Positions 55,432 to 60,324 of a stretch of 64,000 nucleotides of DNA are shown in pieces. The stretch is from an uncultured Latescibacterota bacterium (GTDB lineage Bacteria > Latescibacterota > UBA2968), in NCBI GenBank assembly GCA_951812755.1, contig OX638329.1, positions 62,001 through 126,000 on the forward strand, read 5' to 3'. The notes under the pieces are model-generated. The model did not search any database. It was not told where the DNA came from and saw only the letters and a program-made list of their open reading frames with translations. How positions within the stretch are numbered: position 1 is the first letter of the stretch; the number at the start of each line of letters is the position of its first letter. Both the position numbers and the translations under genes were made by a program.

Positions 55432-57408
55432 TTACCACCCATGAACAGAATGTCCATCTTCGGGAAAAAACGCAAAATCCACAACAGAAGACACACCCAC
55501 GCCAACGACATAACCGATCACAAGACCAAAGAACAAAGGGATACAGCGCCGATAGAGCGAAATGCCACCAATGCGCAGAATAATGAGTTTGGACGCCCAT
55601 GTCAAAAAAATACTGAAAGCATAGACCCGAGAACCCGACATCTTTTGAAAAGCCAGACCCAGGGGATGCAAGGGCCACCACGGGACGCGATTGCGAAGAA
55701 GCATAAGCAGACCCGCTTGCCCAAGCCCAAAAACCCAGACCGCTACTTTACCCGGATCAAAAACCGTTTTATCTGCGCCAACAATAGCGGAAACCATGCG
55801 GTCATACGTGCGAATATTGGACCCACTAAAACCCGACAGCCCCAGGTTTTGACCCGCGTAGTTATACCCCAAATGAACAATAAAAAGACAAGACCCGAAG
55901 AAACCCGAGGCAAAAGCCAACAGAACAATCCAGAAAACCCAGCGGCGGCGGACATCATTCCCCAGAAGCTTGAGATGGTGAGGCAGCGCAGGCCATGCGG
56001 GAATGCGCGAATTGCCAAAAAATGCACTCGAATTAATCACGCCCAATGCAACGGTATTTTGTTGCGTGAGCGTTGCAGTCCCCGTAAAAATTTCGACAAT
56101 TTGCCCCCCCTTGCCCCCAACCGGAAAAAGATAAGAAAAACCACTCGCCGCAGTGTATTTTGCCACAGTAAAATACGCTGCATAAAGCAGTAAGAGGTGG
56201 AAGAGAGCGAGAAAAGGCGACAGACCCACTGCTATGAACCAGCCAAAAACAAAAATAGTCGCCGCAATAAAACCGAGCAACGATAGGCGATACGATACCA
56301 GACCGTCATCTGCCTGCCCCGTCACGGCTGCGCGAAGAACATGCCGCAAATGACCTCGCGCGACCCACACCGCCCACACTGCCAAAAAGATGAAAGCACC
56401 ATGAGATTCTAAAATCAGAATCTCAGCCGCCTCAGCCTGTTGCCCGGAAAGCCCCACATTAAAACCCGTGCGAGCCATCACCCCTTCTTTGACAATGGCG
56501 ATAAGACGAAAAGCCCAGAAACTGAAGAGGATGTCCAGATTACACATATAAGTAAGGCCCAAAACAGGAGGCAAAATACGCAAATAGAACGATGGAAAAT
56601 TGCGCGCAATAGGCACCTCTTTGGTCAAATAACCGTCGTAAATGCCAATTCGAGGCAAGCTGATGGCAAAATAACCGAGAATATTCCAGGCAAAAACACC
56701 GAAAACAATAAAAAAACCCACCCAAAAGAATTTATTCCGAAAAATGCCGGGTATAACGCGGCCAGGGTCGTCAAAGCCCTCGGTCAATGCAATCGGAAAA
56801 GCCGCGAGAGGAAAAGTGAGACGCTCGTTCTCCTCCCATTGCTTTTGAAAAATGACCGAGAGACATAACCCGGCAACAACAAGGGCAATAGATACGGCAA
56901 ACCACCAGTGCAACGAAGCCAGCCAACCGCGCCAGGGAATGCTCGCACCATCGGGAAGCCCCTCGTAATACGTGCGAATAATTTCGGGCGTTGCCTGGGG
57001 CAAACACCACCACGGCAAAATGTCAAAAAGGACCTCTTCCCATCGGTTTTCGGGCGAGGCGTAATAAAACGGCGTACTGACAATGCCGCCCCAATAGGTC
57101 GTCCACCCACTTGCCGAAACCGTACCCACAATCCACGACATACTGTAGATAACGAGAAGTTCTGTGCTGCGCAAAGCCATGCGTGGCCACGCGAGCTTTA
57201 AAATGAGATTGATCACGAGCCATGCGACAAAGGGCAAGAGCATGGCCATAGACAATTGCGACTTGACCAGCGACGCAGACCCCAAAATCATGCCCGTGTA
57301 ATCGCTGTAAATATTGAGCAACGCCGCAGTAGCCGCACCCAGGATAATGGATCGGACGGTAATGCGCCGCGGGCGCGCAGGTTCGGGTTGTGATTGTGCA
57401 AGTGCCAT
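55432..57408 (-). CDS. large polytopic membrane protein (DUF6785/DUF6784-like)
   Basis: 658 residues with about 14 hydrophobic helices and few charged loops. It begins with a short cytoplasmic tail and RSIILGAATAALLNIYSDYTG, then ELLVIYSMSWIVGTVSASGW, WWCLPQATPEIIRTYYEGLP, FPLAAFPIALTEGFDD and GYNYAGQNLGLSGFSGSN. The N-terminal layout recalls oligopeptide-transporter-like proteins. I place it in the DUF6785/6784 group typical of uncultured bacteria; transport substrate unknown. No partner gene. A modest AGGTGAAGG-type leader precedes the start. Confidence 0.7.
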   Translation of the reverse strand: MALAQSQPEPARPRRITVRSIILGAATAALLNIYSDYTGMILGSASLVKSQLSMAMLLPFVAWLVINLILKLAWPRMALRSTELLVIYSMSWIVGTVSASGWTTYWGGIVSTPFYYASPENRWEEVLFDILPWWCLPQATPEIIRTYYEGLPDGASIPWRGWLASLHWWFAVSIALVVAGLCLSVIFQKQWEENERLTFPLAAFPIALTEGFDDPGRVIPGIFRNKFFWVGFFIVFGVFAWNILGYFAISLPRIGIYDGYLTKEVPIARNFPSFYLRILPPVLGLTYMCNLDILFSFWAFRLIAIVKEGVMARTGFNVGLSGQQAEAAEILILESHGAFIFLAVWAVWVARGHLRHVLRAAVTGQADDGLVSYRLSLLGFIAATIFVFGWFIAVGLSPFLALFHLLLLYAAYFTVAKYTAASGFSYLFPVGGKGGQIVEIFTGTATLTQQNTVALGVINSSAFFGNSRIPAWPALPHHLKLLGNDVRRRWVFWIVLLAFASGFFGSCLFIVHLGYNYAGQNLGLSGFSGSNIRTYDRMVSAIVGADKTVFDPGKVAVWVFGLGQAGLLMLLRNRVPWWPLHPLGLAFQKMSGSRVYAFSIFLTWASKLIILRIGGISLYRRCIPLFFGLVIGYVVGVGVSSVVDFAFFPEDGHSVHGW

Positions 57409-58277: not shown

Positions 58278-59336
58278 ATGAGCACACAACCCAATGGCTT
58301 AATAGAAGATAAAAAACGCGCCGCCCGGCGCATTGAAGTCGGCTCTCTCGAAGACGAAATAGAAACCTGTTTTGCACGCGGCTGGAGCGACGGCCTGCCC
58401 GTCGTCCCCCCCACCGAAGAACGCATAATGCGCATGCTATCGGGAACGACCCGCGCGCCCGACGAATTGGTGGGTATTGTCCCCCCAAATTACAACAAAT
58501 GCACCGTTGAAAAAGTCGCCATCAACGCTGTCCTCGCCGGATGCAAGCCCGAATACTTGCCCGTCGTACTCGCAGCAGTTGAAACCGCACTCACAGAGGC
58601 CTTTTGCATGCACGGACTGCTCGCCACCACATTTTTTGCCGGACCCATGATCGTCGTCAACGGACCGATCACACGCGAAATCGGCCTGAACGCACGGGTC
58701 AACGCGCTCGGGCAGGGCAATCGCGCCAACGCGACCATCGGACGCGCCCTTCAACTCGTCATCCGCAACATCGGCGGCGGTATCCCCGGCGGCATTGATC
58801 GCGCCATGCTCGGCAACCCGGGCAAATACACCTTCTGCTTTGCCGAACGCGAAGACGATTCCCCCTGGGAATCCCTCGCTGTCGAAAGGGGATTTTCACC
58901 CGACGCATCCACAGTCTCGCTCTTTGCAGCCAGCGGCGTCACCCCCATCATGGATCAGGCGTCCCGAGATCCCGACGCCCTGTGCCGATCCTTCGCCGCC
59001 TGCCTCAAAGCTGACGGCCATCCCAAACACGCAAACAGCCCGCCTCCCGTACTGGTCATATCGCCAGAACACACCCGCCGCTATGCAGACGCAGGCTGGT
59101 CAAAAACCCGGTTCCGCGACACATTAAATCAGTACCTCCAACTCCCCGCATCAGAACTGATCCCAGGCGCGGGCGACATCCCGGAAGGCACGCGGGCAAA
59201 AGACAAAGAAACCATACCCAAATTTCGCAACAACACATTGCACATCGTCCGCGCAGGCGGAGACGCGGGCTTATTCTCTGCCCTCATCAGCAGTTGGGGC
59301 GGCAGCCAATCCATCACAAAGGAGATCGCGCCATGA
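58278..59336 (+). CDS. conserved protein encoded with UGSC selenoprotein
   Basis: 352 residues, soluble, no signal peptide. Conserved-looking blocks: FARGWSDGLPVVPPTEERI, IVPPNYNKCTVEKVAINAVL, NARVNALGQGNRANATIGRA and IGGGIPGGIDRAMLGNPGKY. I do not recognise a named enzyme family. The stop overlaps the start of the selenoprotein gene (ATGA at 59333), so both are made from one mRNA in fixed ratio and probably act together, perhaps as a redox pair. The ATG follows an AAAAGGAAAAA box. Confidence 0.75.
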   Translation: MSTQPNGLIEDKKRAARRIEVGSLEDEIETCFARGWSDGLPVVPPTEERIMRMLSGTTRAPDELVGIVPPNYNKCTVEKVAINAVLAGCKPEYLPVVLAAVETALTEAFCMHGLLATTFFAGPMIVVNGPITREIGLNARVNALGQGNRANATIGRALQLVIRNIGGGIPGGIDRAMLGNPGKYTFCFAEREDDSPWESLAVERGFSPDASTVSLFAASGVTPIMDQASRDPDALCRSFAACLKADGHPKHANSPPPVLVISPEHTRRYADAGWSKTRFRDTLNQYLQLPASELIPGAGDIPEGTRAKDKETIPKFRNNTLHIVRAGGDAGLFSALISSWGGSQSITKEIAP

Positions 59337-59845
59337 AATTGCTCGACCCCACATCCGAACAAAAACCAGCACAGAGAGAACGGGTAAAACGCCCGCAATC
59401 ACTCGACGGACTGACCATTGGACTTCTCGACATATCCAAAAGCCGGGGCGACGTATTCCTCGACCGCATCGAAACGCATCTCGCACAGCGCAACCTCAAA
59501 GTCAATCGCTACATCAAACCCACATTCACGCGCCCGGCACCCATCGAACTCCAGCAACAAATCGCCACCGAATGCGATGTGGTCGTCGAAGGCCTGGCCG
59601 ATTGAGGGTCCTGTACAACGTGCAGTGTGCACGACACGACCAACCTGGAAACGCGTGGTATTCCCACCGTCTTTGTCGCATCCGAGCCGTTCCGTGAAGC
59701 AGCCGATGCCCAATCAACTGCCCTGGGATTTAATCCCGCCCGCGTCTTTGTAGGCCATCCCATCCAGGATCGCACCGACGAAGAAATGCGGGCACTTGCC
59801 GATGGTGCTATTGAACGCATTCTGAAAAGGATTAGAGCAGAGTAA
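59333..59845 (+). CDS. UGSC-motif selenoprotein (TGA at 59603 read as selenocysteine)
   Basis: 170 residues including selenocysteine at position 91. Two open frames, 59333-59605 and the following one, are in the same phase and separated only by TGA. The junction reads VVVEGLAD-U-GSC-TTCSVHD, exactly the U-G-S-C redox motif known from metagenomic selenoproteomes. The part after the TGA (TRGIPTVFVASEPFREAADA, ARVFVGHPIQDRTDEEMRAL) continues the same domain. A SECIS-like hairpin follows the TGA directly. A frameshift or nonsense mutation is unlikely, since there is no other disruption. Requires selA/B/C/D elsewhere in the genome. Probable thiol/selenol redox enzyme, substrate unknown. Confidence 0.9.
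59607..59641 (+). promoter_or_regulatory. bacterial SECIS-like hairpin
   Basis: Begins two bases after the TGA. GGTC (59607-59610) pairs with GACC (59638-59641), TGT (59612-59614) with ACA (59634-59636), and CGTGCA (59619-59624) with TGCACG (59628-59633). There is a 4-base bulge ACAA on the 5' side and a GTG apical loop. Position, size and a G-U in the loop agree with SelB-binding bacterial SECIS elements inside coding sequence. Confidence 0.8.
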
Positions 59846-59916: not shown

Positions 59917-60324
59917 ATGAACGACAAAAAAATCACCAGAACAAACGAAGAATGGCGCGAGCAACTCACGCCCGAGCAATACTACGTCTGCCGTCAAAAA
60001 GGTACGGAACGCGCCTTCACCGGCATGTACTGGGACTGCCGTGAAGAAGGCGTATATCGCTGTGTATGCTGCAACGCCGAACTCTTCCGCTCAAACCAGA
60101 AATTCGACTCACACTGCGGATGGCCCAGCTTTTTTGACGCCATTGACCCCGAACGCATCAACCAGCACGAAGACCTGAGCTTTGGCATGCGCCGCATCGA
60201 AGTCACCTGCGCCCGCTGCGACGCCCACCTGGGCCACATCTTCGACGACGGACCCGCACCCACGGGCCTGCGCTATTGCATCAACTCCGTAGCCATTGAT
60301 CTGGACCGCGATGAAGAATCGTAA
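59917..60324 (+). CDS. msrB: peptide-methionine (R)-S-oxide reductase
   Basis: 135 residues, single-domain MsrB, which reduces the R-sulfoxide of methionine in proteins. Zinc-binding pairs CVCC and [18 protein letters not shown] (substrate tryptophan/histidine region), [11 protein letters not shown], and catalytic cysteine in [10 protein letters not shown]. The catalytic residue is Cys, not Sec, even though the genome appears to use selenocysteine. Cytoplasmic, no signal peptide. Follows the selenoprotein gene by 71 bases with a repeat between, so a separate promoter is possible. Confidence 0.97.

Follow-up and report, generated by a model that had tools for sequence, protein, structure and literature searches.

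A UGSC-family selenoprotein of an uncultured Latescibacterota bacterium, its fixed partner protein and its kinship with the selenoproteins of glycine and proline reductases

An uncultured Latescibacterota bacterium carries, in the stretch of DNA analysed here (the window, 64,000 nucleotides of contig OX638329.1), a gene that almost certainly encodes a selenoprotein, with an in-frame TGA apparently read as selenocysteine (Sec). It is a new member of the known UGSC family rather than a new selenoprotein. The UGSC gene follows a gene for a protein that belongs to no named family, and the products of the two genes very probably work as one functional unit. On balance, by analogy with better-known enzymes, this unit would probably be a thioredoxin-dependent two-component selenoenzyme. 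What is new here is the homology of UGSC to the selenoproteins of glycine reductase (GrdB) and proline reductase (PrdB), the fixed partner, and the thioredoxin domain tethered to that partner, which this organism has lost. The combination of a GrdB-type Sec domain, a partner of new fold and a tethered thioredoxin, together with the loss of the latter in this organism, was not found described in the literature examined, which included the 2008 paper on the family (PMC2398784). The features concerned are as follows.

58278-59336, + strand: partner protein, 352 residues, no named family, with near-invariant Cys89 and Cys187; confident structural model with no fold match in the PDB
58278-58305, + strand: first codons of the partner, up to a deletion junction; about 120 codons (thioredoxin domain and linker) are missing after about 58305
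59319-59324, + strand: Shine-Dalgarno-like AAGGAG, read from the sequence, within the partner gene and 5' of the UGSC start
59333-59845, + strand: UGSC-family selenoprotein gene, 170 residues, Sec at residue 91 (NF041046, E = 1.2e-46; PF24696, E = 6e-45)
59603-59605, + strand: in-frame TGA as Sec codon, in an ADUGSC motif; shared by all 12 above-cut-off genomes of the phylum and by 76 of 80 contig loci
59607-59641, + strand: SECIS-like hairpin of 35 bases, with an apical stem (59619-59624 paired with 59628-59633), a loop at 59625-59627, a folding energy of -13.2 kcal/mol and nearly frozen wobble positions
59917-60324, + strand: msrB (methionine-R-sulfoxide reductase), 71 bases downstream of UGSC and kept beside it in the window's genus

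The UGSC gene and its selenocysteine codon

The UGSC product scores 158.3 bits against the NF041046 profile (curated cut-off 125) and 153.9 bits against PF24696 (cut-off 25), and it contains the [U/C]GSC motif, in which the TGA at 59603 is followed by GGG TCC TGT (GSC). In 2008, Zhang and Gladyshev placed UGSC among the selenoproteins most abundant in aquatic metagenomes (PMC2398784), and it still figures with the selenoproteins of largely uncharacterized function in a review from 2026 (PMC13188914). The window gene agrees with the known family in sequence, length, ADUGSC motif, the occurrence of Sec/Cys pairs and the SECIS element. Nothing essential differs, but ordinary gene calling misses it.

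The first-pass annotation had recognized the gene by its TGA, the GSC that follows and the open frame beyond, and this reading holds: the frame runs uninterrupted to a TAA at 59843-59845. Translation table 11 breaks the gene into two fragments (59294-59605 and 59627-59845), as had been anticipated, and the ATG at 59333-59335 does overlap the stop TGA of the 352-residue protein (59334-59336) in a coupling ATGA. The TGA itself, by splitting the gene under plain table 11, is the only thing that would speak for a pseudogene, a sequencing error or a genome-wide reassignment of TGA, and such a reading is exceedingly improbable. The codons 3' of the TGA are under purifying selection like those before it, with pN/pS values of 0.12 and 0.15, respectively (calculated from pooled counts, not as pairwise medians). 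A global code in which TGA means Trp fails as an explanation because the adjoining partner gene uses TGA as its stop.

The machinery for Sec insertion, proposed earlier as a check, is complete in the organism's 6.53 Mb genome, which contains selA, selB, the tRNA-Sec gene (selC; 73.3 bits against a cut-off of 47) and selD, the last with one in-frame TGA of its own. Homologues also speak against an accident of sequencing. When 64 genomes of the phylum were searched, all 12 above-cut-off UGSC matches had exactly one internal TGA. When genome contigs were scanned using the partner as query, 80 loci from many phyla came up, and 76 of these have TGA at the Sec site. The other four comprise one Blastococcus locus with TAG in the exact place of the TGA, one contig that ends before the site and two loci with no UGSC. 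Since a tRNA-Sec with anticodon CUA has been published in Geodermatophilaceae (PMC5330540), the Blastococcus TAG fits a tRNA-Sec that reads UAG and serves as a natural control for Sec decoding. Cys-containing counterparts, which the first-pass annotation had suggested looking for, were also found: CGSC with a Cys codon (TGC or TGT) occurs in UGSC homologues of halophilic archaea, Arthrobacter, Embleya, Roseovarius and Variovorax.

The 35-base hairpin that had been noted two bases past the TGA is likewise borne out. Taken by itself, the window hairpin is only moderately strong, as about 4% of 1000 synonymous recodings of the window sequence fold as well. The hairpin is convincing because its synonymous positions are conserved. 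Among 88 Sec genes of many phyla, codons +5, +6, +7, +8 and +10 have third-position entropies of only 0.24, 0.16, 0.00, 0.27 and 0.36 bits, whereas most neighbouring codons have about 1-1.9 bits. In the apical stem, the two wobble-wobble pairs are preserved in 99-100% of unique sequences. Its position just 3' of the UGA and its short, G-containing apical loop are those of a bacterial SECIS element. Sec genes (n = 95) have a mean folding energy of -16.5 kcal/mol over 45 bases and Cys genes (n = 7) one of -11.7 kcal/mol, a difference that is indicative only, since the Cys genes are few and the site was misplaced in one of them. An Rfam scan of the window gave no match.

In several loci, selA and selB lie directly downstream of the partner-UGSC pair, so that the module and the genes for Sec insertion can move together. 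Both genes adjoin the pair at loci L065, L080, L087, L110 and L115, and at L152 selB is found further off. Sec-encoding UGSC genes on plasmids of Paracoccus and Acidovorax (L035, L037 and L152) are unannotated or split in public records.

The partner protein and its tethered thioredoxin

No Pfam or NCBIfam family was found for the partner, searched either alone or together with 79 relatives. Its predicted model is good (pLDDT 91, pTM 0.90). Resemblance to a fumarase or cyclic-amide hydrolase fold was considered and rejected as insignificant (best TM about 0.3). A PDB sequence search with the UGSC and partner profiles returned chance matches only.

Adjacency and gene fusions lend strong support to the idea, raised in the first-pass annotation as a possibility, that the 352-residue protein is the partner of UGSC. 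UGSC lies directly downstream of the partner, on the same strand and within 370 bp, in 75 of the 80 loci. This figure holds for the closest of at least 586 partner relatives, which these loci represent. Among the remaining five, UGSC is nearby in three, the contig ends too early in one, and one has none. More distant plasmid copies of the partner (29-46% identical) have UGSC adjacent or fused in 15 of 16 loci; a Haladaptatus copy has no UGSC within 4 kb. Single-gene fusions of UGSC and partner exist with Sec (genome G024 and an Acidovorax plasmid), with Cys (Neorhizobium) and with Met at the Sec site (Sporomusa and Vibrio). Mention of a UGSC/Unknown_1 fusion occurs in the 2008 paper (PMC2398784), and this may have been an early sight of the present partner.

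A separate Sec subfamily appears to be represented by divergent UGSC-like selenoproteins of about 245 residues with the motif VVD-U-CGASSCSLHD (L021, L023, L024 and L025, in genomes G061, G021, G023 and G022). Their C-terminal part is unrelated, and no partner is found within 1.5 kb.

Two cysteines of the partner are near-invariant and many of its polar residues are invariant, which would suit a partner that is catalytic alone, with the Sec/Cys of UGSC making or repairing a modification on it, for instance by reducing the conserved cysteines. The Haladaptatus copy and the Met at the Sec site of some fusions lean the same way. However, the fused USTC/CSTC lineage (L022 and Neorhizobium) keeps Sec or Cys in UGSC but has Ala at the first of the partner cysteines, and in L022 the second one is missing too, which makes catalysis by the partner alone improbable.

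An N-terminal thioredoxin domain is present on the partner in 79 of the 80 loci, and the 80th begins at a contig edge. The CxxC of this domain is invariant in all 47 aligned sequences, and its profile matches thioredoxins in the PDB at 1.4e-6. The codons missing from the window partner are kept in 10 of its 12 close relatives. Where the relatives read MSTQPNGLI-AVVKQDCPTC...-ETVLAARRIE, the window reads MSTQPNGLI-EDKKRAARRIE, while the junction in a second congener (G031, locus L010) is MSTQ-IEIGSLEDE. Since the two junctions differ, the two in-frame losses look independent.

A CPxC thioredoxin domain tethered to the partner, or trxA/trxB as neighbours, is what the relatives share with the thioredoxin/TrxB system. 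Arthrobacter has the gene order trxB-trxA-partner-UGSC, and trxB is found near the pair in Roseovarius and Variovorax. With the domain gone from the window partner, in contrast, any thioredoxin must act in trans. The lost domain was not found elsewhere in the organism's genome, where a free thioredoxin is present. No canonical NADPH thioredoxin reductase scored above cut-off in the same genome. A frame of 192 aa (G000:C1:2597714-2598202) resembles thioredoxin reductase in its first and last parts, with no match to the middle NADPH domain. That the tethered thioredoxin is gone could also mark the beginning of decay, but selection on UGSC is intact.

Fold and kinship with GrdB and PrdB

The AlphaFold model of UGSC (pLDDT 93.8) has alternating strands and helices, with Sec91 placed between strand 83-89 and helix 92-107. 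It is predicted to be a flavodoxin/Rossmann-like domain, as such folds match the model at a TM of about 0.4-0.5. A thioredoxin-like fold was the guess made for UGSC in 2008 (PMC2398784); this is unsupported, with no thioredoxin among the matches listed.

The sequence points to a different kinship. Among 74 UGSC members, 65 match TIGR01917, the model for selenoprotein B of glycine reductase (best E 5e-5), and 58 match the sarcosine GrdF model (best E 1.6e-5), although the members are related and these tests are not independent. When a wider UGSC set was aligned by hhalign to the true GrdB and PrdB of Acetoanaerobium noterae and Peptoclostridium acidaminophilum, the probability was 93-95% for GrdB (E 4e-7 to 6e-8) and 72% for PrdB, against 0.7% for a GrdE control. 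The signal appeared only with these true sequences and the wider UGSC set; two near-identical PrdB-like sequences gave none. Sec91 aligns on Sec346 of GrdB (ADUGSCTTC with STUGTCTRC), followed by RGIP with AGIP and then by HP. Scores against the curated GrdB and PrdB models are about 12 bits, compared with cut-offs of 300-800. UGSC is therefore related to the C-terminal Sec domain of GrdB/PrdB but stands alone, and it is not a member of those families.

Like UGSC, the GrdB/PrdB proteins have this C-terminal domain with Sec after a strand, the U-G-x-C-T sequence and the GIP and HP motifs. UGSC differs from GrdB in being without the large N-terminal part. GrdB/PrdB systems include the pyruvoyl subunits GrdE/PrdA, to which the UGSC partner is unrelated: homology was rejected at an hhalign probability of 0.1%, and there was no Pfam match (pyruvoyl family PF09338). 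The UGSC system is further set apart by the thioredoxin tethered to the partner and by its wide occurrence in groups not known for Stickland fermentation. In the genome of the window organism, no match to PrdB or to GrdB was found, the absence of GrdB being weak since the PF07355 control also gave none.

PrdB-like selenoproteins of 406 residues with an IUPNC motif occur in two genomes of the same class (L123 1408-2625 and L124 958-2175). Cys-type GrdB-family proteins (CPVC/CPIC) are found on plasmids of Roseomonas and Haematobacter, outside anaerobic reductase operons (L134 3860-4768 and L135 3854-4780).

Gene neighbourhoods and a possible mechanism

On plasmids, the partner-UGSC pair is surrounded by genes for CoA transferases, a CoA ester lyase and the isocitrate lyase/PEP mutase family, as well as TRAP and tripartite carboxylate transporters. 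These neighbourhoods look catabolic and for that reason hint at a small carboxylate as the substrate. Phosphosulfolactate synthase genes near the pair in Arthrobacter (L033 5671-6459) and the haloarchaeon Natrinema (L154 853-1320) possibly point to a sulfonate or C3-acid substrate. Clustering of the neighbours found no single conserved pathway gene besides selA/selB and, in some loci, thiolase. Within the window, msrB is possibly on the same transcript as UGSC. Upstream, on the opposite strand, lies a gene for a DUF6785/DUF6784 membrane protein (55432-57408).

In the proposed mechanism, the partner would bind and present a small, probably carboxylate, substrate, which would be attacked by the selenolate of Sec91. 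The resolving cysteine, Cys94 or Cys97, would then form a selenenylsulfide with Sec91, and thioredoxin, normally tethered to the partner, would reduce this bond and reset the enzyme. In the window species, a free thioredoxin would have to do the reduction in place of the lost tethered copy. Most likely, a carbon-heteroatom bond would be cleaved reductively. This is the chemistry of GrdB/PrdB, for which selenolate attack on carbon and a later selenenylsulfide have been proposed, glycine reductase receiving its electrons from thioredoxin (reviewed in PMC10298544). This chemistry may be carried over to UGSC by analogy, but the pyruvoyl chemistry of glycine and proline reductase is not transferable because the partner is unrelated to GrdE/PrdA.

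Several points stand against a thioredoxin-driven mechanism of this kind: the organism's own genome is without an above-cut-off NADPH thioredoxin reductase, the msrB neighbour fits an antioxidant role as well, and in the fused lineages with Met at the Sec site the redox step is gone or moved. The pair might instead be a thioredoxin-dependent antioxidant or repair reductase, acting on a peroxide, sulfoxide or disulfide with the partner as target or scaffold. A UxxC motif with a fused thioredoxin is typical of thiol oxidoreductases, and a redox role was assumed by earlier authors (PMC2398784). However, the homology of UGSC is to GrdB/PrdB rather than to peroxiredoxin or thioredoxin, and together with the catabolic look of the plasmid neighbourhoods this leaves an antioxidant function rather unlikely.

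More tentatively, and with the balance somewhat against it, the cleavage reading can be extended: UGSC and its partner might constitute a third branch of the GrdB/PrdB group, in which the pyruvoyl subunit has given way to a substrate subunit of new fold that carries its own tethered thioredoxin. Such a branch would cleave a carbon-heteroatom bond in a small carboxylate, and its bacteria and haloarchaea would not be among the amino-acid-fermenting anaerobes.

The partner represents a widespread protein family that is itself without an entry in Pfam or NCBIfam. The window organism, whose partner has no tethered thioredoxin, provides a natural experiment. For the UGSC family at large, what was a “hypothetical selenoprotein” becomes an enzyme open to testing, now that it has a fixed partner, an electron donor tethered to that partner and a link to glycine and proline reductase.
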